A model generated the notes under the pieces. The model was given only the letters and a program-made list of their open reading frames with translations, was not told the DNA's origin and did not search any database. The position numbers and the translations under genes were made by a program. Positions 10,576-58,355 of a stretch of DNA of 64,000 nucleotides are shown here, one piece after another; within the stretch, counting starts at the first letter, position 1, and each line of letters opens with the position of its first letter. This DNA is from Anaerocolumna chitinilytica (lineage in GTDB: Bacteria > Bacillota > Clostridia > Lachnospirales > Lachnospiraceae): contig NZ_AP023368.1 of NCBI RefSeq assembly GCF_014218355.1, forward strand, positions 2,174,001-2,238,000. Direction: 5' to 3'.

Positions 10576-11421
10576 ATGAATGCTTTGGAAGTAAAGAATC
10601 TAAATAAATCTTATAAGGAGTTCAGTCTGAATAACATCAGTTTTAGTCTTCCTCAGGGGTGTATCATGGGGCTTATCGGTGAAAACGGTGCCGGAAAGAG
10701 TACGACCATTAAGCTGATTATGAATACCATAAAGAGAGATAATGGAGAGATTTCAGTCCTTGGAAGAGATAACAGCGTTGATTTTAAAGAAACCAAAGAG
10801 GATATTGGTATTGTACTGGATGAAGCATATTATCCCGAGTATCTGACTGGCCGGCAGATTAATAACTTCTTGAAATATAGTTATAAGAATTGGGAAGAGG
10901 ATAGGTTTTTTACTTATTTGAAACACTTTAATATTCCGGAGAAAAAAGTTTTCAAAGAATTTTCCAGAGGAATGAAGATGAAACTTTCTATAGCTGCGGC
11001 TATGTCACATAAAGCAAAGCTTTTGATACTGGATGAAGCCACTAGCGGACTGGATCCAATGGCAAGGGAAGAAATACTGGAATTATTTTATGAATTCACA
11101 AGGGATGAAGAACACAGTATTCTTATTTCCTCCCATATTGTATCAGATTTAGAGAAACTTTGCGATTATATCACCTTTTTGCATAGAGGAAGGCTGCTCT
11201 TTAGTGAGGAAAAGGACCGATTGCTGGAGGAGTATGCCATTCTTCATTGCAGCAAAGAAAATCTAAAAAATATTCCGGCAGAAAAAATTCTGGGAAAAAG
11301 ACTTTCTGCTTATGGAGCCGATGTATTAATAAAGAAAAGCAGAGATTTTAAAGAATATCCTATGGATAAGGCGGGAATTGAAGATATCATTTTATTAATG
11401 GCTAAGGAGGGAATCGCATAA
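10576..11421 (+). CDS. ABC transporter ATP-binding protein (YtrB/BcrA type)
   Basis: 281 residues: Walker A GENGAGKST, a Q-loop-equivalent region at DIGIVLDEAYYPEYL, signature FSRGMKMKL (divergent, as usual in this group), Walker B KLLILDEATSGLDP and the switch His in ISSHI. The C-terminal 60 residues are the extension typical of exporters linked to YtrA-like regulators. The gene's TAA overlaps the ATG of the permease by one base. Likely role: export of, or resistance to, a membrane-active compound (inference). Confidence 0.9.
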   Translation: MNALEVKNLNKSYKEFSLNNISFSLPQGCIMGLIGENGAGKSTTIKLIMNTIKRDNGEISVLGRDNSVDFKETKEDIGIVLDEAYYPEYLTGRQINNFLKYSYKNWEEDRFFTYLKHFNIPEKKVFKEFSRGMKMKLSIAAAMSHKAKLLILDEATSGLDPMAREEILELFYEFTRDEEHSILISSHIVSDLEKLCDYITFLHRGRLLFSEEKDRLLEEYAILHCSKENLKNIPAEKILGKRLSAYGADVLIKKSRDFKEYPMDKAGIEDIILLMAKEGIA

Positions 11422-12044
11422 TGAAAGGTTTGTTGTTAAAAGATTGGTATGTATTATTAAAGCAAGGAAGAATGATGCTTTTATGTATTGTACTTTATAC
11501 AGTTTTATCGGTAGGAGGAAGTGAGTCTTTCGGAATTTTTTCGTCTTTATTCATTGCTATGCTGCCTTTGACATTAATGGGAATAGATGAACGGAGCAAA
11601 TGGGATTATCTGGCGATTGCAATGCCTTATAATAAAAGGGATATTGTACTAAGCCGCTATATATTAATTGGGTTAGGTCTTCTTGCGTTAGGTGTTATCT
11701 ATATTGTAAGTGGATTCACATATAATCTCATCTTAGACAAAACAGGAGATTTATTTCAATGGGAAACTGTTATATTAACAATTATTGCAGGATTGATTTA
11801 TCCTAGCTTTAGCCTGCCCATTGTTTTTTATCTTGGTGTGGAAAAGGCAAGATTGTGGTTTATTATCTTAACAGGCGGTCTTGCTGGAGGAGTAGGAGTC
11901 TTCGCGTACAGTAATTTTACGGTTAGTTTGGATATACTTCACTATTTATCGAATAATTTATGGTTCATAATAGTTGTATCAATTCTGCTGTTCCTGTTGT
12001 CTGCAGCAATCGCCGTCCGTTTATATGAGAAGAGGGAGTTTTAA
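11421..12044 (+). CDS. ABC-2 type permease partner
   Basis: 207 residues, six membrane helices, starting MKGLLLKDWYVLLKQGRMML, the usual beginning of ABC-2 permeases paired with YtrA operons; SKWDYLAIAMPYNKRDIVLSR is the typical cytoplasmic loop. Start codon overlaps the stop of the ATPase gene, so the two are coupled. The stop codon lies inside a hairpin shared with the convergent MATE gene. Confidence 0.85.
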   Translation: MKGLLLKDWYVLLKQGRMMLLCIVLYTVLSVGGSESFGIFSSLFIAMLPLTLMGIDERSKWDYLAIAMPYNKRDIVLSRYILIGLGLLALGVIYIVSGFTYNLILDKTGDLFQWETVILTIIAGLIYPSFSLPIVFYLGVEKARLWFIILTGGLAGGVGVFAYSNFTVSLDILHYLSNNLWFIIVVSILLFLLSAAIAVRLYEKREF

Positions 12045-12064
12045 GGGAGCTTAGTCCCTTAAAA
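12039..12064. terminator. Hairpin containing both convergent stop codons
   Basis: 10-bp stem TTTTAAGGGA / TCCCTTAAAA with a 6-base loop. The plus-strand TAA (12042-12044) is in the stem and the minus-strand stop (12051-12053) in the loop. The T runs are short, so termination may be weak. Confidence 0.55.
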
Positions 12065-13385
12065 CATTGGTCTCTTTCCATTTACCGGAGAAATAAAAGG
12101 ACATAGAGAGGATAGCTGCAGCAATCCAGCCGATTGGCCAGGATGCCCAGATTCCATTGGTTCCGAATATCGGGGAGAGAATGTAAGAGAGTATAACTCT
12201 TAATACCAAGTCAGTCAAGGTAGCTGCCATAAACTGGCCCATGGAACCGGCACCTCTTAATACACCATCGGCTAATAATTTAACAGAGATAATAAAATAA
12301 AAGGGAGAAGCTATCTGAAGAAAATGCACACCGGTTGCAAGACCTAAGGAACTGTCAACCTTAAAAAAGTTTATAAGCTGGCTTCCGAAAAACATATAAG
12401 ATATTACAAAGGGCAGACAGATGGTAAGCACCATGCCAATACCACTGTGAAAGCCCTTTTTTATTCTGTTGTAATCTCTAGCACCAACATTTTGAGCGGT
12501 GAAACTGGACATTCCGTTCGCAAGGGTTGATAAAGAAGTAATTGCAAAGGTATTAAGCTTAATAGCAGCGGAAAAGCCTGCAATGACAGGTGTACCGTAG
12601 CCGTTAATAAGATTTTGCACGAAGATATTTCCTACGGATACAAAGCTTTGCTGTAAGATACTTGGTATGGCTACTCTTGCAATCTGCCATAACACAGGAG
12701 TGGAAAAATGAGAGTAGCTCTCTGTTTTTAGCTGCCTTAACCGGAATACCAGGGTAATTAAAGAGAGGATACAAGCAGTCCCTTGTGCTATAAAGGTAGC
12801 CCAGGCGACACCAGCTACACCCAGGTGAAAATATCCAACAAACAACAGACATAAACCGATATTACCAAGGGAGGAACCTATCAGAAAATACAAGGGTGTA
12901 TTGGAGTCCCCCAGGGAAGTAAAGATGCCGGTTGCTACATTATATAAGAAAAGGAAAGCAAAACCTCCTATGTATATCTTAAAGAAGAGAGAGCTGTCCG
13001 CAAAGATGTCTGCCGGAGTTTGAATCATTCGCATCATGGGATCTGCGATTAACAGGCCTATTACAGTTAAAATAACCGATAACACCAGAGTTGTAATTAA
13101 CGTAGTGGAAATGGCGGTTTTACATTTGGCATGTTCTTTTCTGCCAAATAGCTGGGATATAATAACAGAGCAGCCGATATTACAGCCAAAGGCGATAGCC
13201 ATAAATATCATAGTGATGGGGTAGGAAGCACCGACGGCAGCCAGGGCATTTTCACCTGCGAACTTACCGGCTATTACGCTATCCGAAAGACTGTACATTT
13301 GCTGGAATATAACACTGATAAACATAGGAATAGAGAATTGAATCAGAACTTTACTGGGACTTCCTTTTGTCAAATCTTTTATCAT
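12051..13385 (-). CDS. MATE-family multidrug efflux transporter
   Basis: About 444 residues with twelve membrane segments in two halves. The start MIKDLTKGSPSKVLIQFSIP is the classical MATE N-terminus, and GRKEHAKC and AGFSAAIKLNTFA are family loops. Members exchange sodium or protons for cationic drugs and metabolites; the substrate is unknown here. I place the start at 13385 with GGAAAGG eleven bases upstream; in-frame ATG 13418 and TTG 13433 are alternatives without good ribosome sites. Divergent from a LysR regulator that may control it. Confidence 0.9.
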   Translation of the reverse strand: MIKDLTKGSPSKVLIQFSIPMFISVIFQQMYSLSDSVIAGKFAGENALAAVGASYPITMIFMAIAFGCNIGCSVIISQLFGRKEHAKCKTAISTTLITTLVLSVILTVIGLLIADPMMRMIQTPADIFADSSLFFKIYIGGFAFLFLYNVATGIFTSLGDSNTPLYFLIGSSLGNIGLCLLFVGYFHLGVAGVAWATFIAQGTACILSLITLVFRLRQLKTESYSHFSTPVLWQIARVAIPSILQQSFVSVGNIFVQNLINGYGTPVIAGFSAAIKLNTFAITSLSTLANGMSSFTAQNVGARDYNRIKKGFHSGIGMVLTICLPFVISYMFFGSQLINFFKVDSSLGLATGVHFLQIASPFYFIISVKLLADGVLRGAGSMGQFMAATLTDLVLRVILSYILSPIFGTNGIWASWPIGWIAAAILSMSFYFSGKWKETNVLRD

Positions 13386-13594
13386 ATTATTAAATATACC
13401 TTTCCGGTACCTGCTCATATATTGCAGACACAAATTTGATTTATTTATACATATTGCTGTGCTTACTCTAATTCATATTTATATAATTAGTTCTTGCTTC
13501 TTTGCACGCCTTTTATTATAGTATTCTTAAAATCATTTGTAAAATAGTAAAATGGGGAGTTATCCATAGAAAAAGTGAATGGATAGAATGAAAT

Positions 13595-14473
13595 ATGAAG
13601 ATTAATCTGGAACACTATAAGATTTTTTACTTTGTAGCAAAGGATAAAAGCATAACTGCAGCAGCGAAAGAGTTATATCTGTCTCAGCCAACGGTAAGCA
13701 AATACATTCAGAATCTGGAGAAAGAGCTTGGCATGACATTATTTATCCGGTCTAAAAAGGGAGTGGTGTTAACACCGGAAGCTGAAATCCTCTATGAGCA
13801 TATAGCAAAAGCTTATAGACACATTGATCTGGCAGAAGAAGAACTGATGAACCGGAAGGAGCTGCAGGAAGGGATTCTCCACATAGGAGCAAGTGAGATG
13901 ACAATGCAGCATTTTCTATTAGCATATCTGGAAAAGTATAAGAATTGGTATCCGAATATCCGTCTTAAAATATCCAACTGTTCTACCCCCTCTGCGGTTG
14001 AAAAACTTCGCAACGGCAGTATCGACATGGCTGTCATAATATCTCCAATAGAAGAGGAGGATTTGAATATCTATAAACTCAAAGCTTTTCGGGATGTATT
14101 TATAGCCAGGAAAGGTCATCCCCTCTGCGAGGGAGAAGTACCCTTAAAAGAGCTGGTCCGCTATCCATTTATCTGTTTGGAAAAAGGAACTATCAGCAGA
14201 CAGTATCTGGAGGAATTGTTTTTATCTCAGGGAGAAGGGCTGGTGCCTGACATCGAACTAGCTTCCACGGATTTGGTGGTGCCGGCCGCAGCCTACGGCC
14301 TTGGGATCGGTTTTGTTCCCTATAACTTTGCCGCCGCCGCTATAAAAGAAGGAATTGTGGATCTTATAGATATCATAGAACCTCTAAAAGAGAGATATAT
14401 CTGTGCGGTCACACTTCATTCCCATCCTTTATCCTCCGCCGCAGAGAAAATGATGAAGATTCTTCTAACCTAG
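13595..14473 (+). CDS. LysR-family transcriptional regulator
   Basis: 292 residues. The N-terminal HTH (MKINLEHYKIFYFVAKDKSI, AAKELYLSQPTVSKYIQNLE) is followed by the substrate-binding-like domain from about residue 90 (LHIGASEMTMQHFLLAYLEK, GLGIGFVPYNFA). The 162-bp gap to the divergent MATE gene is the usual place for LysR binding. The convergent azlCD genes downstream are less likely targets. The coinducer is not inferable. Confidence 0.88.
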   Translation: MKINLEHYKIFYFVAKDKSITAAAKELYLSQPTVSKYIQNLEKELGMTLFIRSKKGVVLTPEAEILYEHIAKAYRHIDLAEEELMNRKELQEGILHIGASEMTMQHFLLAYLEKYKNWYPNIRLKISNCSTPSAVEKLRNGSIDMAVIISPIEEEDLNIYKLKAFRDVFIARKGHPLCEGEVPLKELVRYPFICLEKGTISRQYLEELFLSQGEGLVPDIELASTDLVVPAAAYGLGIGFVPYNFAAAAIKEGIVDLIDIIEPLKERYICAVTLHSHPLSSAAEKMMKILLT

Positions 14474-14573
14474 ATAATAGGTATGTTTGAAAAATTACTA
14501 TATTAATATTAATATATTTATATGGAAACAATACAAAACAGAAAGAACGAGTTAGCCTTAGGACCAAAATATA

Positions 14574-14909
14574 TCATTTGAAGACATATTGTACCAGAAG
14601 CATATAGACAATCGTTCCCCCTGCTATACTTAGCAGGGTATTTCTTTTCCAGAGATGCAATAAGAGGATGGATAAGACAGCAACAGCCTCCGGAATGCCA
14701 TAAGGTGAGGAGATAAATGAAATACTCTTCATACAATAAACCACCAAAAGTCCGATAATTGCACTTGGCAGTACTTTACCCAGATAGTTTATGTAGAGAG
14801 GAGGAGTCTTTTTTTCAGGAAATAGAAGAAAGGGAAGGAATCTTGTAAACATGGTTCCAAGAGCAATAGCTGCAATAATAATCAGCGTTTGAAGAGGCGT
14901 TAAGTACAT
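14574..14909 (-). CDS. azlD: AzlD-family branched-chain amino acid export subunit
   Basis: 111 residues and four membrane segments; [32 protein letters not shown] is the AzlD core (seen at about residues 22-54). Works with AzlC to export branched-chain amino acids and their analogues such as azaleucine. Its ATG lies inside the last codons of azlC (10-base overlap), so translation is coupled. Confidence 0.88.
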
Positions 14910-50512: not shown

Positions 50513-50521
50513 TGGTATAAT
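50513..50521 (+). promoter_or_regulatory. Extended -10 promoter at the outer edge of the left inverted repeat
   Basis: TGG-TATAAT (TGn plus TATAAT) with a poor -35. Transcription would begin near 50528, inside the repeat, and enter the segment between the repeats. The 50272-50512 stretch is AT-rich and has no other feature I can name. Confidence 0.6.
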
Positions 50522-50523
50522 GA

Positions 50524-50549
50524 ATAAAGGATAATCAACTATTATCCTT
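50524..50549. repeat. Left 26-bp inverted repeat of a possible invertible segment
   Basis: Core AAGGATAAT-CAACT-ATTATCCTT preceded by ATA; the arms extend to 15 bp here. The identical 26 bases occur in opposite orientation at 54302-54327. The 5-base asymmetrical centre fixes the orientation. The architecture is like tyrosine recombinase crossover sites, or an operator. Confidence 0.85.
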
Positions 50550-50577
50550 TATTCAATTATTATACGAAAGGTATGCT

Positions 50578-53052
50578 ATGGATAATTTTCGAGGTATTGT
50601 AGGTCGTAAGCTGTTAACTGATGAACTAAAGGATAAATATATAAATAAAGTAGCTAAATCGGTCACAGTAATAAATGCGGGATATGGACAGGGCAAGACA
50701 TATGTTATGAATTTGTTAATTGATGATCTATCTAAAAATTATAAAGAAATAAAAATTTTTACAAATCAAGAAGATGAATTTATATTGTGTTCTAGTTCTT
50801 CTAAATCTAAAGAATTAAATTCTATTGATTTTTCTTTTGGTATACCAGCTTTTTCCTTAGGTGTAGGGGTGGGTTGGGAAAATCGGCATTCAAATTATGA
50901 CAAAATAAGAAATATGTTATCTAAGCATATGAATAAGAATATACTTATTTGTGTAGAAAATATAAGTATTGCGAATAGTAGTATACGGATACTTTTATCA
51001 TATATAATCTATAATATAGAGAAATTAGAAAAAGAATTTAAAAAAAGAATCTTTGTCCTCATTACTGATGTATACGAACAAGACACTATTTACAAATACA
51101 ATATATCAACTGAAATAATTAAATTACAAGATTATGATATAAACGATGTGAAAATTTTTCTAAAACAGAGGCATGAAATATTTAATTTTGATGAACTAAA
51201 TATAGAAAAAATATTTGAGTTAAGTAGTGGTAATTTACACATAGCAGATTTTCTTTTTGAGGAAATTCTAGTATATGGGAATAATCATCTTTCGACGTTA
51301 AATGATATTGTAAATAAAAAAATGGCTTTAATAAAAATGCAAGGCGAAAAAAAAGAATTAGCTGGTAAAGACATTGAAAATATTATCTATTCAGCTTCGT
51401 TGGCTATAAAAGAATTTTCAGCAGGATTACTAACAGAAATAGTTGAGCAAAACATTACAAATATCTCCAGCAGCCTTGAAATCGCTAAAAAAGAAGCACT
51501 ACTGACTCAGGATATGAAAAAATATTATAGATTTATATCTAATGATATACAAAAACATATAGCGGATATGACAATAATAAATCATGAAAACTGGTTAATT
51601 ACTTACTACAATTATTATTCAGAAAACGAACAAGATGAATATTATCTTAGAGCTTATTATTTAATTAAATATCAAGATGAAATTAGCTCTATTTCATTTT
51701 CACTCTTAGTACTTGCTTATTCTGCGGCACGGAAAATGTCTGATGATATTAACACAAAAAAGGTAATTGATTTAAAAAATTTATATATAAAAGAGTCCGC
51801 TGAAAATGATAATTTCCAACGTATTATTAATTTTTATGATAGTCTGTTTGCTAATAAATCGCTATCAGAAGTAAAGGGAAATTATAAAGCAGTTCATATT
51901 GATTCTTTGGAATTAGTGGTTAAAGCAGAATTAACATGTGAATATTTTCATTATCTTTATACTAATACCAAAATGGATGATTCTGCTTATTTAAATGTTT
52001 TATATCAGTGTAAAGAATATGCGTTACAAAAATTAAAACTCAACGTATCTGATATAGATTTTGTTGTTAGTATAGACGAAACTATCTTACGTTTAAAAAT
52101 TATCTATGATATTGCGCCATGTATATTGGATCAGTTAAATGATTATGATAGCTTTCAAATGTTATATCAAAAAAGTAAAGAACTCTCTGAAATCAAATAT
52201 AATTCAAAAAGATGTAATTTAGGACAGTATATAGAAAATGTATTTAATAGAAAGGCTTTTCTATTTGTTAATCAAGCTGCTTGTAAGATATATTATGAAA
52301 AAGCTAAAAACTTTTTCTTGACCAATAAAATATGGGATGAATATTGTATTACACTTGTATGTGAAGCTGGTACTAGTATTGTTATACAACAATTTGAGGA
52401 AGCACTTGAGCTTTGCTGTAAAGTTCAGGAAATATGTCAAGAACAGAATATATTGCTCCCACAAATTAATAAATTATATAACAATCAAATTATTGCGGAG
52501 TTTCTATTAGCAGAACAAAAAACAAAAAATATAAATAGAGCTATATCGTCCGCAAAAAAAGCGTTAGTAAAGTTGAAAAAATGTGTTAACAAGACTGCTG
52601 ACACAGCCCAATTTGTAATACTTACTAATATATGTTCACTATCATTATATTGTAATAATGATAAACAGTATCTGAAATATAAACATTTATTAGAAAAATC
52701 ATATAATTGTAAAAGAATTGATGATTTAGAAGATAAAAACATCGATGATTTTTATAGATACTATTTTGGGTGGTTTGAGCTTTTCAGAATGATTCATAAT
52801 TGTGAGTGGGCGAAAGCAGAACAATATGTTAAACTACTAAAAGATTTTGTTCCAGCATTATTTAAAAAACAAGAAGTATTCTGGGAAAAGAAAAACAGTT
52901 CAGTACAATATATGATCGATAATAAGCAAACTACTAACCCGTTTGATTTTTGTAATAATCTAGTTGATACAAATCGAAATGAACAGACTATATCTAAGTT
53001 TTTTTATCGAGGGTTGATGGTATCTGACCTACAATATACATCATATTTTTAG
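50578..53052 (+). CDS. Large P-loop STAND-like ATPase, function unknown
   Basis: 824 residues. Walker A GYGQGKT at 35-41 in an NTPase domain (about 10-300; possible Walker B NILICVENIS), followed by some 500 residues of helical, TPR-like sequence (for example YYEKAKNFFLTNKIWDEYCI, EEALELCCKVQEICQEQN). This is the plan of STAND switches such as MalT/NLR-type ATPases, but I find no HTH or effector domain at either end. GC is much lower than in the core genes. AAAGG precedes the ATG, 28 bases after the left repeat. Signal sensor or defence role is only a guess. Confidence 0.65.
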   Translation: MDNFRGIVGRKLLTDELKDKYINKVAKSVTVINAGYGQGKTYVMNLLIDDLSKNYKEIKIFTNQEDEFILCSSSSKSKELNSIDFSFGIPAFSLGVGVGWENRHSNYDKIRNMLSKHMNKNILICVENISIANSSIRILLSYIIYNIEKLEKEFKKRIFVLITDVYEQDTIYKYNISTEIIKLQDYDINDVKIFLKQRHEIFNFDELNIEKIFELSSGNLHIADFLFEEILVYGNNHLSTLNDIVNKKMALIKMQGEKKELAGKDIENIIYSASLAIKEFSAGLLTEIVEQNITNISSSLEIAKKEALLTQDMKKYYRFISNDIQKHIADMTIINHENWLITYYNYYSENEQDEYYLRAYYLIKYQDEISSISFSLLVLAYSAARKMSDDINTKKVIDLKNLYIKESAENDNFQRIINFYDSLFANKSLSEVKGNYKAVHIDSLELVVKAELTCEYFHYLYTNTKMDDSAYLNVLYQCKEYALQKLKLNVSDIDFVVSIDETILRLKIIYDIAPCILDQLNDYDSFQMLYQKSKELSEIKYNSKRCNLGQYIENVFNRKAFLFVNQAACKIYYEKAKNFFLTNKIWDEYCITLVCEAGTSIVIQQFEEALELCCKVQEICQEQNILLPQINKLYNNQIIAEFLLAEQKTKNINRAISSAKKALVKLKKCVNKTADTAQFVILTNICSLSLYCNNDKQYLKYKHLLEKSYNCKRIDDLEDKNIDDFYRYYFGWFELFRMIHNCEWAKAEQYVKLLKDFVPALFKKQEVFWEKKNSSVQYMIDNKQTTNPFDFCNNLVDTNRNEQTISKFFYRGLMVSDLQYTSYF

Positions 53053-53053
53053 T

Positions 53054-54106
53054 TTACTTATCATAATTGGATATCATACATGCAACAATTATTTTATATA
53101 TTGTTTCATATGGCAATTTGTAATATTGTGTAAACAGGTATGCAATTGAACTATGATAAATAGTATATGGAGTCCCTGCAATATCGATTAAAAATGGTGT
53201 ATTATCTTTGATTCGAAAGTCAAAACGAGCATAATCCTTAACTCCTAGTAGTTCAGCGGCATTTTGGGCAATTATTTTAATATCTTCTTTTATTGGTGAA
53301 TTTAAAATAGCAAAATCATAATTATATGCATTAGATGTTATTGTATCAATGAAATAATTATTATTGCGAAAGACAATTTCAACTGGGTCCAAAGCATAAT
53401 ATTTTCCACTGTATTGTAATACCAAAACTTCACATTCAATTCCAGCTATATAATTTTGTATAAGTAAAGTATTAGTATTCATATTATCTATCAATTTATC
53501 AAGGATTTCTTTAGAAGTGTCGTTAAATAAAAAAATATTTTCGTCTGTTAAGCCTATACTTGCAGATTCATGGTTGTTCTTTACAATGACTTTCTGCGCT
53601 TTGTATGTAGGATATAAATCATCAAAATTGGTATTATTACAGTAGATTTCACTCTTAGGTACATTTATGCCATTTGTTTCTAAAAATTTTGTATAAATAA
53701 ATTTATTACGCAGCAAAGAAATAACAAAAGCATTACTACCGGTGTATTTTATGTTTAATAAATCACAGAAAGCTGGTATTAATGATTTTTTGCCATTTGA
53801 TCGTCCGTCTCGAGCAAAATTATAAACAATATATTTAGTATTAATTATATTATTTTCTAGTATATATTTAATAAATTCAAGTTCACTATAAAAGACTTTG
53901 ACAAACCCAAAACAATAAAAAATCGCAGACGCAATTTCTGCAAATTCTGTGCGAGAAAAAAATTCACTTTCATCAGAATGAATAACGGTTCCATTTCCAT
54001 ATTGATTAGTCTTCACCTGTGTATCGGCTATAACATATACGTCAAAATCTATGTTAATGTTTTTATAATACAATAAAATAAATTCAAGCAATTTATTATC
54101 TGTCAT
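53054..54106 (-). CDS. ATP-grasp enzyme related to D-Ala-D-Ala ligases
   Basis: 350 residues. Ddl-like order: N-domain ending YTGSNAFVISLLRNK, central KVIVKNNHESASIGL, LIQNYIAGIECEVLVLQY, then ARFDFRI and PFLIDIAGTPYTIYHSS. In true Ddl the last block is usually E-x-N with a Pro-Gly and Ser; here E and N are replaced (D, A), so metal coordination may differ. It could ligate amino acids or a peptide rather than D-Ala. AAAGGAG precedes the ATG. Convergent with the STAND-like gene, two bases between the stops, and inside the same inverted-repeat segment. Confidence 0.75.
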   Translation of the reverse strand: MTDNKLLEFILLYYKNINIDFDVYVIADTQVKTNQYGNGTVIHSDESEFFSRTEFAEIASAIFYCFGFVKVFYSELEFIKYILENNIINTKYIVYNFARDGRSNGKKSLIPAFCDLLNIKYTGSNAFVISLLRNKFIYTKFLETNGINVPKSEIYCNNTNFDDLYPTYKAQKVIVKNNHESASIGLTDENIFLFNDTSKEILDKLIDNMNTNTLLIQNYIAGIECEVLVLQYSGKYYALDPVEIVFRNNNYFIDTITSNAYNYDFAILNSPIKEDIKIIAQNAAELLGVKDYARFDFRIKDNTPFLIDIAGTPYTIYHSSIAYLFTQYYKLPYETIYKIIVACMISNYDK

Positions 54107-54301
54107 TTTGTCATTCTCCTTTGTGTGAGTGAATCATAGCATTATTAATTATAGATTATATTGGGCTTTTAGAGTTTTTACGCTCATTTACCTATTTATA
54201 TGAAATTTATTCATCGATGTTTTTAGGACAAAACTTTAAATTCTACGATATATATATAAGTTAACAATCAATAATCATTTCGTTATTAAAGTAATTCTTT
54301 G

Positions 54302-54327
54302 AAGGATAATAGTTGATTATCCTTTAT
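54302..54327. repeat. Right 26-bp inverted repeat of the possible invertible segment
   Basis: Reverse complement of 50524-50549 over all 26 bases, with centre AGTTG. It lies 195 bases upstream of the ATP-grasp start and 82 bases past the end of the recombinase gene. Confidence 0.85.
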
Positions 54328-54373: not shown

Positions 54374-54404
54374 AAAGTGCAGCCTAATTTTTCAAGGCTG
54401 CATC
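54374..54404 (-). terminator. Terminator of the recombinase gene
   Basis: GTGCAGCCT / AGGCTGCAT 9-bp stem (one mismatch-free core AGCCT) with TTTT on the minus strand, just after the recombinase stop. Confidence 0.7.
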
Positions 54405-54408
54405 TAAA

Positions 54409-55332
54409 TCATTTGAATAGAAACGTATTTCTAGGATGCTTTTTTGTTAAAATATTTTTTTGCTTAGCCATTGTGACATGTGTGTAAATCTGTGTTATAT
54501 TTATAGAACTATGCCCTAACATCTCTTGTATGTAACGAATATCGACATCTTCTTCTAAAAGGTATGTTGCAAATGAATGTCTAAACATATGTGGTGTAAT
54601 ATGTAGCTCAATAGCAGCTAATTTAGAATGTTTATCTATCATATTCCGCACAGATTGTTCAGAAAGACGATTATTTCTTTGATTTATAAAAAAATAATCC
54701 GAATTTATAAGTTCTTTCTTAAAATATTCATGGTAATTTCTTAAGGCTAAAATTACATCATCATTACCGATTTGAATTCGACGTTCTTTTGATCCCTTTC
54801 CATTAATTAGTACATTCTTTTCTATAAAATCAATATTGGATTGTTTTAAAGAACAAAGTTCTGAAATTCTAATTCCGGTTGCAAATAGGAGTTCTATGAC
54901 TGCAATGTCACGTGAAATACATTTTGCTTGAAATGAAGTTGAGACTAAATCTTCTTGTTTATATAATGTAATGAGAAAGCTTTCAATTATGTGTAAAGGT
55001 ATGACTTTTGGTAAGTTTATAGGTTCGCGAAATTTTATTTGTAATTTATTGAATGGGTTAATTAGAATGATTTCCTTATATTCTAAATAATGAAAAAAAG
55101 CTTTCAAACTTGCTATCTTACGTCTAACAGTTTTAGGTTTATAAGATTGGTGAAGTGTAGAAATGAAATCCTCTATGGAGTCAGGATTAATAGATTTAGA
55201 AAAATCACATGAGTGAAAATTCGAAAATTGTGATAAATCAATTTTGTATGCCTTGATAGTTTTATAATCCAGTCTTTTCTGGTTGTGACAGAATAATAAA
55301 TAATCTGAAATGATAGTTTGTAAATTTTTCAT
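54409..55332 (-). CDS. Tyrosine recombinase (XerC/D-like integrase)
   Basis: 307 residues, complete: N-terminal SAM-like core-binding domain (1-100) and catalytic domain with Arg155 (ATGIRISEL), Lys in GKGSKERR, His248 and Arg251 (PHMFRHSFAT), His274 (LGHSS) and nucleophile Tyr283 (QIYTHV). No excisionase or phage genes nearby, so it is not obviously a phage integrase; the small XerC-like size fits enzymes that flip DNA segments. It sits next to the right repeat, which has the inverted-arms-plus-spacer form of its sites. AGGAG-type ribosome site before the ATG. Confidence 0.9.
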   Translation of the reverse strand: MKNLQTIISDYLLFCHNQKRLDYKTIKAYKIDLSQFSNFHSCDFSKSINPDSIEDFISTLHQSYKPKTVRRKIASLKAFFHYLEYKEIILINPFNKLQIKFREPINLPKVIPLHIIESFLITLYKQEDLVSTSFQAKCISRDIAVIELLFATGIRISELCSLKQSNIDFIEKNVLINGKGSKERRIQIGNDDVILALRNYHEYFKKELINSDYFFINQRNNRLSEQSVRNMIDKHSKLAAIELHITPHMFRHSFATYLLEEDVDIRYIQEMLGHSSINITQIYTHVTMAKQKNILTKKHPRNTFLFK

Positions 55333-55489: not shown

Positions 55490-55850
55490 CTCAGGAGATT
55501 CTGATGTCTCTTGTCTGCTCAATGATATTTTCACGCTCTATTTCAGCAACGGCAGACAGTACGTATATTATTTTCCCCGGTTTAAAAGACTGGCGTATCT
55601 GATAGGCAATCACATCTTTTGTGTTCTCTGCCTGTAATGTCGCTGTAAATCCGCTTGGATAGAAGAAATTCTCTCTTCACTGTTTTTGTGGCGCATTCAT
55701 GGGAGCTGATGTATTCGCTTTGGTTTGTTTTAGCAGGATTTTTGGCGTAATAGGTGCGGTTAGCAAGACAATCCACAATAGATTTACCTTTGTTTTGATG
55801 CATGGAAATCAAACGTGTGGTAGCGATAGTAACACTTCCTTCTGGTGTTG
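55490..55850 (-). pseudogene. Relics of a mobilisable element: relaxase N-terminus plus resolvase fragment
   Basis: On the minus strand, translation near 55830-55600 gives ATTRLISMHQNKGKSIVDCL and the later KREFLLSKRIYSDITGREHK, which matches the start of relaxases of clostridial mobilisable transposons. A frameshift after GREHK moves the relaxase sequence to another frame (AYQIRQSFKPG). It then runs into IIYVLSAVAEIERENIIEQT, the end of a serine resolvase catalytic domain. So two broken genes have been joined by deletion. Assignment from remembered family sequences. Confidence 0.7.
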
Positions 55851-55911: not shown

Positions 55912-56910
55912 ATGAGTAGAAATGCGACCCCTTCATCTTTTGGCTGGGATTTTCAAATAAATGCAGCAATTGTACTAATGCTTGAAAATATTAAAACAAT
56001 TAAAAGCGTTCGAGTTGAAGGCAAAAAAGAAGATATTGAACTTTTTTTGGAAAGCAAGAAAAACATATATGCACAGGCGAAATCAGTAATGCGAATTGAT
56101 GATTATAGAAATGTAAGAAGTAATTTAAAGGCTGGTTTAGAAACGCTAAATGATGATGCAGCTTGTGATGATTATCATAAGCTAATTTATGTTACGAATT
56201 CACCAAATCCTTTTAATGTTGAAAATTCTATGAGTGCTTTTTATGGACACTCTCGTTTGTCATATAATGACTTGCCACAATCGTGTAAAGAGATAATTGA
56301 TAAAGAGATAGAAAACAAGCCATTAATACATATCGATAAATCCGAACTAGAAATACATGTAATTCCGTTTTTTACAGATGATTTTCAGCAAAGATACAGA
56401 GTGATTAAAGATAGTGTTGATAAGTTCTTATTTGAGCTTAATAATAATACCCGTGGGATGGCAGATGAATTATTGGAAATATGGCAACATGAATTTTTTC
56501 AAAATTGCACACAGGGTGATTTAGATTTAGTTATAAAGAAAAAAGACCTTATGTGGTCAATAATTGTTTTACAATCGCAACTTCATCCGGAGCATACCTT
56601 CTTAGGAGATTATGACGATGGGGCAGTCGAAGAAATTATTCGCTCCTATAGATATTTGATAAATAATCGTTGTGAAAAATTTGAATTTATTTCTCAAGTT
56701 TTGTTTGACTTTCAAGAGTTTAGATCCGATGAAAAGGGTAATAAAAAGGTAGCGGAATTTATTGCTACAAAATGTGATGATTACAAAGACGTTTTTGAGC
56801 TAAACGAAATCCGTGACGAAGTGCAAGACATTGTTGTGAAAATAATATTGCAAAAAATTATTACTAATAGATTTCTGGCAAATGACATTGTAAAGAAGGT
56901 GAATTTATGA
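55912..56910 (+). CDS. Putative DUF4297/Cap4-like nuclease of a two-gene defence cassette
   Basis: 332 residues. ATG 55912 has GGAGGTG seven bases upstream. The N-terminal 60 residues carry a PD-(D/E)xK-like pattern: SSFGWDFQINAAIVLMLENI, RVEGKKEDIELFL (Glu36, Asp41, Glu43), NIYAQAKSV (Gln55-Lys57). That order (E, then D-x-E, then QxK) is seen in DUF4297/Cap4 dsDNA-cutting domains. The rest is a helical C-terminal half with no hit I can name. ATGA overlap with the ATPase gene. Likely the effector of an abortive or anti-plasmid system (inference). Confidence 0.65.
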   Translation: MSRNATPSSFGWDFQINAAIVLMLENIKTIKSVRVEGKKEDIELFLESKKNIYAQAKSVMRIDDYRNVRSNLKAGLETLNDDAACDDYHKLIYVTNSPNPFNVENSMSAFYGHSRLSYNDLPQSCKEIIDKEIENKPLIHIDKSELEIHVIPFFTDDFQQRYRVIKDSVDKFLFELNNNTRGMADELLEIWQHEFFQNCTQGDLDLVIKKKDLMWSIIVLQSQLHPEHTFLGDYDDGAVEEIIRSYRYLINNRCEKFEFISQVLFDFQEFRSDEKGNKKVAEFIATKCDDYKDVFELNEIRDEVQDIVVKIILQKIITNRFLANDIVKKVNL

Positions 56911-58355
56911 TATTTCATTCTCTTAAAATAACAGAAGGTATGTTTGAGAGAGTCATAGATCTTACGGAAAAATCCAACTTAATATATAGCAAGAAAAACA
57001 GTACGGGAAAAACAACATTGATACGTTTTTTTTTATATTCTTTGGCTTATCCAGTACCAAGCACCAAAAATATACGTTTTGAAAAATGTATAACAGAGGT
57101 CAACCTAACTTGCTCAATGGGAAAGATTACAGTTCTACGAAATGATGAATATCTGGAAGTTAGTCTTGAAAATGGCTGCAAAGAAAATTTTGTTCTTCCA
57201 ACTGACCAAAATCTTTTCCATGCTAAAATTTATGGAACTCAAAATAACGACTTATTAAATAATATTCTGGGTGTATTCTATGTCGACCAAGAAAAAGGCT
57301 GGACCTTACTTAATCGTGGTATCATTATTGGCAAAATCAGATTTAATATTGAACAATTGGTACGTGGCTTATCTGACAGAAGCTGTGACGACTTAACCAA
57401 AGACCTACGTTCTGTTAAACAACAATTAAATAAATATAAGCAGATGTTCAATATTTCGCAATATCAGCAAGAACTAAACGAAGCTGAAAATAATATTGTT
57501 TTTGATACTAAAGATGAAGAAGAACAAAAACTTCTGGAAATTCTAAACTCGGAGATTACTTCCTTAGAAGCTGAATTGAAACGGGTTAATACTGTTATTG
57601 CTGAAAACAACTCATTTAAAAATTTTATAGAAAGAATGAAAATTGCAGTTAAAGGATCTAACGGAGAGTCAATTCCCGTTAATCGAGATACTATTATTGG
57701 CTTTGATTTTTCGGTTGAATTTTTATTAGCAAAAAGAAAAATGATTTCGTCTAAAATTTCCTCTTTGAAAAGCAAGGCAGAGAAGTATGAGCGAAGCCTG
57801 GAAGGGCAATTGCAACTATTTAAAACAGAAACTCTTATAGAAAGTTTTGACCGAAACATCTCCAAAATTGAAGTAGATCAACTTTCGGTGTCAAATATGA
57901 TTTCAAGTTTGGAAAAGGAAAAAAATCGGTTAAATAAGCAAATTACTTTTTTAACAAAATATAATAACGATGTTGTGACAAGTATCCATAAAACTGTTAT
58001 GAAGTATGCTAAAGAATTAGATTTTGAGCAGTTTATTACTCCTTCTTCAGATTATATTTTTACTGATGATTTAAAATCTTTATCAGGAACTATATTACAT
58101 AAGATTGTATTTGCTTTTAAGCTTGCCTACATAATAGAGGTGCAGAAGAAAATAAATATGACTTTACCAATCATTCTCGACTCTCCAAGTGGTAGAGAGA
58201 TTACAAAAGAAAACGTTAAGGCTATGATTGATATTTTAAATCGTGACTTTTCTGATAATCAAATTATCATTGCATCAATTTTTCAATATGATATTGATGA
58301 GGTTAATGTTATAGAGATAAAAGATCGATTAATCAATGAACTTCGTCAACAGTAA
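56907..58355 (+). CDS. SMC/RecN-like ABC-type ATPase of the defence cassette
   Basis: 482 residues. Degenerate Walker A SKKNSTGKTTL (28-38; Ser instead of the first Gly), two coiled-coil stretches with a turn (about 160-230 and 290-370), signature-like LSGTILHKIVFAFKLAYI (residues about 395-412) and Walker B PIILDSPSGRE (Asp425). This is a short-armed SMC/RecN/Rad50-type ATPase. It overlaps the nuclease gene by 4 bases, so the two make one complex. Composition is like Lamassu LmuB and similar systems, but there is no third gene. Confidence 0.75.
   Translation: MIFHSLKITEGMFERVIDLTEKSNLIYSKKNSTGKTTLIRFFLYSLAYPVPSTKNIRFEKCITEVNLTCSMGKITVLRNDEYLEVSLENGCKENFVLPTDQNLFHAKIYGTQNNDLLNNILGVFYVDQEKGWTLLNRGIIIGKIRFNIEQLVRGLSDRSCDDLTKDLRSVKQQLNKYKQMFNISQYQQELNEAENNIVFDTKDEEEQKLLEILNSEITSLEAELKRVNTVIAENNSFKNFIERMKIAVKGSNGESIPVNRDTIIGFDFSVEFLLAKRKMISSKISSLKSKAEKYERSLEGQLQLFKTETLIESFDRNISKIEVDQLSVSNMISSLEKEKNRLNKQITFLTKYNNDVVTSIHKTVMKYAKELDFEQFITPSSDYIFTDDLKSLSGTILHKIVFAFKLAYIIEVQKKINMTLPIILDSPSGREITKENVKAMIDILNRDFSDNQIIIASIFQYDIDEVNVIEIKDRLINELRQQ

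Follow-up and report, generated by a model that had tools for sequence, protein, structure and literature searches.

The stretch of DNA analysed here, 64,000 nucleotides of Anaerocolumna chitinilytica (contig NZ_AP023368.1, positions 2,174,001 to 2,238,000; hereafter the window), contains a 3804 bp segment at 50524–54327 which, judging from its sequence and its relatives, is very probably inverted by an adjacent tyrosine recombinase. The segment carries genes for a STAND-like ATPase and an ATP-grasp ligase. The best explanation of the whole, to which we assign a probability of roughly 0.8, is that the recombinase flips the segment and one fixed promoter reads whichever gene lies adjacent to it. 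Inversion is the part held with most confidence; predominantly alternating expression of the two genes is probable, to a clearly lesser degree. An invertible switch had been proposed in an original prediction from this single locus. The proposal is supported by the finding that recombinase, site pair and convergent gene pair are kept together in many related loci, of which the window locus is one, and among which the cargo differs.

In the proposed mechanism the recombinase would invert the segment via the two inverted sites at its ends, a step for which the relatives give indirect support. A fixed promoter outside the recombinase-distal site would start transcription at or within that site and read the nearest gene. 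From position and conservation, this would be the ATPase gene in the sequenced orientation and the ligase gene after inversion. On the other side a putative terminator would block recombinase transcription from entering the segment, so that the far gene would be weakly expressed or silent. With the two genes virtually abutting at their 3' ends, any transcript running past the end of one would be antisense to its neighbour. A clonal population would then be a mix of two cell types, each with one half of a functionally linked pair. For this strain we infer inversion, exclusive expression and function alike from sequence comparison.

The segment, its sites and its proteins

As predicted, the 26 bp sequence at the left end of the segment returns as its reverse complement at the right end (Table 1). 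Each site consists of two 9 bp arms around an asymmetric 5 nt spacer, AAGGATAAT-CAACT-ATTATCCTT on the left and AAGGATAAT-AGTTG-ATTATCCTT on the right, and the spacer is therefore inverted as well. Exact matches to the 23 bp core are confined to the two segment ends in the 5.62 Mb one-contig genome, with two further places at 2 mismatches. The ATPase and ligase genes are convergent, with 1 bp between their stop codons, and a complete recombinase gene ends 81 bp beyond the right copy. The extended −10 element reported directly outside the left copy, TGGTATAAT, is also present; it scores above shuffled sequence (p=0.017) and, from its spacing, transcription from it would begin in the site. The ATPase gene starts 28 nt from its site. 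The terminator-like hairpin between recombinase gene and segment and the ATP-grasp gene leader of about 195 nt are both absent from the earlier account.

In the recombinase, R155, K179, H248, R251, H274 and Y283, which we take to be the catalytic residues, are invariant in 17 aligned sequences, and the R-K-H-R-H-Y set is present. The ATPase has a weak match, under the cut-off, to Pfam nSTAND_NTPase5. Its fold matches include the STAND-TPR structure 6mfv, Avs3, the TPRs of Rap, NprR and MalT, and a Cdc6/Orc1-like NTPase, with low whole-chain TM-scores. The ligase matches Pfam PF07478 above the cut-off, and Foldseek matches it to Ddl; against the curated Ddl family it reaches 64.3 bits where the cut-off is 243. 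It is a Ddl-like ATP-grasp protein only, sharing fold and PF07478. The ATPase and the ligase show no similarity to each other in an all-versus-all comparison (E≤1e-4).

Table 1. Features of the candidate invertible segment and its flanks
Feature	Position in window	Strand	Remarks
Extended −10 promoter element TGGTATAAT	50513..50521	+	Outside recombinase-distal site, reads into segment; predicted start inside site
Left (distal) recombination site	50524..50549	+	Arms AAGGATAAT/ATTATCCTT, spacer CAACT
STAND-like ATPase, 824 aa, TPR-like C-terminal half	50578..53052	+	Promoter-adjacent in sequenced orientation
ATP-grasp ligase, 350 aa, D-Ala-D-Ala-ligase-like fold	53054..54106	-	Promoter-far in sequenced orientation
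Right (recombinase-proximal) recombination site	54302..54327	-	Inverted copy, spacer AGTTG
Terminator-like hairpin, GATGCAGCCT...AGGCTGCACT then T-rich	54377..54404	-	Between recombinase gene and segment
XerC/D-like tyrosine recombinase, 307 aa, presumed invertase	54409..55332	-	Pfam PF00589, 4.5e-44

Related loci in the Lachnospiraceae

Of 250 sampled Lachnospiraceae genomes, 34, counting that of the window, encode relatives of the recombinase (E≤1e-50). Loci around such recombinases (L numbers; sampled genomes have G numbers) were taken from longer flanks of 19 loci and from 80 named loci, the best 80 of 586; with four duplicates removed and the window included, 96 were scored. Searching these for the motif RGATAAY-N5-RTTATCY, with at most one mismatch, gave 108 sites. 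Two sites with a common spacer are found in 24 of the 96 loci, the window among them, and all of these pairs are inverted. Direct matched-spacer pairs occur in none of the 96, and excision of the segment is rejected on that count. Reversed sequence, three Markov shuffles and five scrambled-arm runs (two of which drew the same arm) gave 3–13 sites each and zero pairs. In 52 of the 96 loci a site is found no more than 700 nt beyond the end of the recombinase or 600 nt ahead of its start. The 5 nt spacer is the same and inverted within a pair and different between many loci, which fits a strand exchange requiring identity of the two spacers only.

Within the genus, at least one exact motif match is present in 12 of 15 genomes, own included, mostly lacking a matched partner. 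L191 has a site pair and a recombinase; L192 and L193 share one identical spacer near two contig starts; and L194–L196 have a lone site and no recombinase. Multiple nested site pairs are present at both segment ends in L130 (with two different matched spacers), L044 and L172, which suggests layered or renewed switches. G260 and G266 each have six exact motif places, including a matched pair within one contig; each of these genomes probably contains more than one switch.

The layout of the segments is also conserved, with open reading frames (ORFs) and starts called mechanically and ORFs of less than 100 aa left out. Two convergent genes or operons are held by 23 of the 24 segments, 22 by script and L088 on hand reading, where the genes are convergent once an ORF crossing the site is counted. 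The exception, L061, has an additional divergent radical-SAM gene. The gap between stop codons is at most 50 nt in 20 of the 22 scored segments, and 13 overlap.

Cargo was tallied in 27 segments (the 24 plus L158, L191 and L233). A recognizable enzyme, by family match or homology, is encoded on one side in 23 of them: ATP-grasp proteins, glycosyltransferases, a NodU-like carbamoyltransferase, an SHMT-like protein with ADH, an IspE-like protein, an aminotransferase, a polyprenyl synthase or radical-SAM proteins. On the opposite side, 20 of the 23 have AAA/STAND/NB-ARC, TPR, TIR or pentapeptide matches or homology to such proteins, many of them below curated cut-offs; L054, L119 and L191 have no match of these kinds opposite the enzyme. 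The pairings seen include STAND- or AAA-like ATPases with ATP-grasp proteins, glycosyltransferases or the carbamoyltransferase, TIR with radical SAM, and Thoeris-like ThsA with TIR. In L055, L066 and L073 a SIR2-STALD protein with a strong ThsA match accompanies a TIR protein, whose match to ThsB is clear in L055 (2e-12) and L066 (6e-12) and marginal in L073 (0.0085); the candidate family PDC-S66 outscores ThsB in all three. L126 combines a pentapeptide protein with an unannotated one. Seven pair families recur with both partners homologous, six among the 24 segments plus L105/L233, and this suggests that the halves are functionally linked. Recurrent partners, including ThsA with a TIR protein, suggest that the halves may belong to one conflict or immunity module.

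The exact pair of the window is rare in the sampled genomes: relatives of its ATPase are found in two of 397 and of its ATP-grasp protein in four of 397, own included in each count. The case consequently rests on the recombinase family and on protein matches without context. A protein search gave 25 homologues of the ATPase besides itself, and the ligase has 336 protein matches at E≤1e-20. In L037 (genome G218) a 55 % identical ATPase lies beside an 82 % identical ligase end; the contig stops within the ligase, and the recombinase, encoded on a different contig, has no motif site within 9 kb. For 12 of the 25 other ATPase matches, the longest contig has exactly the same size as for one of the 120 listed ligase matches. 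L037 and these shared contig sizes together suggest that the two genes of the window are linked in function. A plasmid search yielded eight records, which contain no more than fragments of recombinase genes. Two weak ATP-grasp matches came from phage records, and the viral contigs gave no relative of the ATPase.

Orientation, expression and alternative explanations

When orientation is compared in related genomes, as the original prediction advised, five of the seven recurring pairs are found both ways relative to the recombinase. The Thoeris-like pair of L055 is opposite to that of L066 and L073 (L055 and L066 are 74 and 77 % identical). The same is true of L047 and L130 (56–65 % identity), L118 and L138 (38 and 34 %), L071 and L129 (31 and 22 %), and the ATP-grasp/ATPase pairs of L105 and L233 (45 and 28 %). 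The carbamoyltransferase segments L039 and L044 show a single orientation, and the SHMT pair L041/L050, in which the recombinase is on the other side in L041, is ambiguous and was not counted as opposite. Of the 27 segments, 10 have the enzyme on the recombinase-proximal side and 13 on the distal side; L126 and the three Thoeris-like segments are unclassed.

Contig ends provide a second line of evidence. In 23 of the 80 named loci the contig breaks off no more than 300 nt beyond the recombinase match, and in three no more than 300 nt upstream, where 1.14 per side is expected. By script, 15 of these 23 tails contain the motif; of the other eight, L060, L098 and L121 end inside it, L070, L092 and L111 have a two-mismatch variant, and L064 and L117 have none. 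In the assembly of Clostridium sp. HBUAS56010 each of the four copies of an 18 bp site core coincides with a contig end, and the segment forms a contig by itself (3077 bp). In Lacrimispora amygdalina src4 the segment is likewise a separate contig (3528 bp), and the boundary of a 24 bp repeat is where one of the flank contigs breaks off, as does the segment contig at its far end. Repeats as short as these would be expected to break short-read assemblies only where there are reads for both links, so the contig ends would fit the presence of both orientations, under which separate segment contigs in these two near relatives would be expected. One ATP-grasp protein, P0027, is 99 % identical to that of the window (2 residues differ) and comes from a contig of 3802 bp, close in length to the segment alone. 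The longest contig is 3.70–3.81 kb for five of 26 ATPase matches (metagenomic), a hint only, since the sources may cut contigs.

The promoter was assessed with a home-made score compared with mononucleotide shuffles. In the 26 segments covered, promoter scores are higher on the distal than on the proximal side (one-sided Wilcoxon p=0.003), and terminators were found in nine of the 26 proximal flanks versus none of the distal. The sequence TGnTATAATGAATAAAGGATAAT outside the distal site is common to the window, L191 of the same genus and L159, whose cargo and neighbours differ; this suggests that the nearest relatives have kept an extended −10 promoter outside the recombinase-distal site. Alignment of the window with L191 shows 84 % identity over 980 bp of recombinase, 82 % over about 100 bp of distal promoter and site, short site matches and nothing else. 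The two recombinases share 88 % amino acid identity, and their spacers differ and their cargo is unrelated.

Several observations count against the proposed mechanism. Among the contigs examined, none assembled carries the inverse junction; the three L. amygdalina contigs can be joined in one orientation through overlaps of 119 bp at both junctions; and hairpins, coverage or similar causes could also explain why contigs end there. A matched pair is present in 14 and absent from 24 of the 38 named loci whose contig continues for at least 7.5 kb downstream, and the recombinase faces the opposite way in L041 and L051. The promoter score reaches p<0.05 in only nine of the 26 distal flanks, the other 17 being non-significant alone, and those of L039, L047, L061, L088 and L129 are no better than shuffles. 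Three proximal flanks (L041, L191 and the Lacrimispora locus L158/160) also reach p<0.05; both flanks score in two of the three nearest loci, and the better promoter of L041 is on the recombinase side. Several loci lack a promoter signal, a terminator signal or both. In L050, L054, L055, L071, L105 and L118 the site begins 14–49 bp past the recombinase match with no terminator found, and the proximal gene may therefore be co-transcribed with the recombinase. The ATP-grasp leader of the window could hold an internal promoter. The window ATPase has no match among the partner proteins of the other 23 segments (E≤1e-4), in which only the ligase is matched. Thoeris should need both of its proteins, which fits strict exclusivity badly.

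Some of these points favour the strongest alternative, in which the segment inverts and both genes are expressed, from promoters of their own or by read-through from the recombinase, and inversion changes only the ratio of products. We consider this less probable than alternation, though a serious contender. Leaders of about 150–350 nt (197 in the tally for the ATP-grasp gene of the window; also genes of L044, L071, L080, L108 and L130), the recombinase stops close to sites lacking a detected terminator and the Thoeris requirement all speak for it. In L041, L047, L054, L055, L073, L118, L126, L129 and L138, however, the mechanically called starts of both genes lie at most about 65 nt inward from the site, or even outside it, which leaves little space for an internal promoter, and the proximal terminators noted above also oppose it. 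A narrower possibility, that the switch turns only the ATPase on and off and the ligase is an unrelated passenger or counteracting gene, draws on the fact that the ATPase alone starts near its site. It is improbable, given the shared contig sizes of ATPase and ATP-grasp matches and the ATP-grasp relatives of L054, L061, L076, L105 and L233, which likewise face a large protein that is ATPase-like or unannotated.

The recombinase might instead act mainly to acquire or exchange cargo in the manner of an integron, with inversion as a by-product. The shared recombinase and distal promoter of the window and L191, beside unrelated cargo and neighbours, would suit such a role, but the invariably inverted matched-spacer sites are an arrangement for inversion, and with differing spacers a simple site-specific exchange between these two loci is unexpected. 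This reading is unlikely, if marginally less so than a switch of the ATPase alone. The suggestion that the palindromes are only repressor operators before both genes, with no inversion, had been named beforehand as one of the findings that would undo the prediction. The sites are indeed near-perfect palindromes, often near start codons, and a transcription start within the palindrome would suit an operator. Spacers that are identical and inverted within a pair and variable between loci, the linkage of sites to a recombinase, contigs that end at sites and gene pairs in both orientations make it very improbable, and operators alone were rejected on the spacers, the recombinase linkage and the contig ends. 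Inversion before a fixed promoter remains the preferred explanation.

Relation to known systems and possible roles

The G segment of phage Mu, the C segment of P1 and the P segment of e14, inverted by Gin, Cin and Pin, contain alternative gene sets, and transcription from outside reads the adjacent set. The window resembles them in having a probably invertible segment with alternative gene sets and a recombinase gene beside it, and its convergent alternatives beside a fixed outside promoter-like element correspond, by sequence alone, to the Mu and P1 arrangement. Their recombinases are serine recombinases of the Gin/Cin family, whereas that of the window is a tyrosine recombinase (PF00589); and their alternatives are related tail-fibre ends, whereas here whole, non-homologous genes in chromosomes are involved. 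Phages Mu and P1 provide precedents for inversion connecting alternative genes with a single promoter.

Tyrosine-recombinase invertons show reversible inversion and mixed populations. Those of fim, of Clostridioides difficile (Cdi/RecV) and of the Bacteroidales invertible promoters likewise combine short inverted sites with a tyrosine recombinase, and there mostly a promoter or leader flips on or off, whereas here two genes would flip before a promoter that stays in place. A tyrosine recombinase also inverts gene-containing DNA in the pneumococcal PsrA system and other hsdS shufflons. Inversion of hsdS remakes one gene through domain swapping. Such shufflons have at least three sites or intragenic sites; the window has only two sites, both intergenic, and its genes are left whole. 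The ThsA-like SIR2-STALD and TIR proteins of L055, L066 and L073 resemble Thoeris, but their genes point towards each other within a presumed invertible segment, and the TIR proteins score better with PDC-S66 than with ThsB. ThsA (SIR2-STALD) and ThsB (TIR) are both absent from the pair in the window.

The viral contig L201 (IMG/VR, 126 kb) suggests a link to phage tail-fibre switches. It encodes a 61 % identical recombinase and has an inverted site pair at 11322–14693, one site lying inside an ORF of 554 aa in a region with tail-fibre matches. The 554-aa protein itself has no PHROG match. Since the frame at either end reads DNIRLS-TDRAGN, C termini would be exchanged on inversion, as in Mu. 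This suggests that a phage tail-fibre switch may be a relative or ancestor of the cassettes.

Searches of open-licence literature turned up no description of such cassettes, in keeping with the original prediction, whose author knew of no described system with this gene pair; the pairing of unrelated sensor or effector and enzyme modules by inversion was not found there. In one report (PMC12529663), recombinases are described as often adjoining anti-phage genes, with function unknown. The present loci would represent one invertase family with exchangeable cargo that selects one of two unrelated proteins which recur as partners and of which one or both often belong to immune or conflict families. 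To our knowledge, most described invertons turn one trait on or off.

It is a tentative idea, and one we would not favour over its negation, that widespread recombinase toggles in the Lachnospiraceae split two-component conflict systems whose halves take turns at one promoter. One half would be a signal or modification enzyme and the other a STAND, SIR2, TIR or pentapeptide sensor or effector, Thoeris-like pairs included. If this were so, sister cells would divide the labour of immunity or signalling between them, or the system would be made safe by never fully arming one cell. Alternation of coupled halves would fit division of labour, the setting of a ratio or the safe storage of a costly response. 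If expression alternates, the question is why the halves of one system, such as Thoeris, should be kept in different sister cells. The site motif and recombinase family can be used to find further sensor–enzyme pairs.

Outside the switch, the window encodes a candidate defence pair, PDC-M46A/PDC-M46B, at 55915–58355 (PADLOC, 3e-130 and 1.3e-192). Between this pair and the recombinase gene, at 55497–55812, are short minus-strand frames that, by their motifs, resemble remnants of a serine resolvase and a relaxase.

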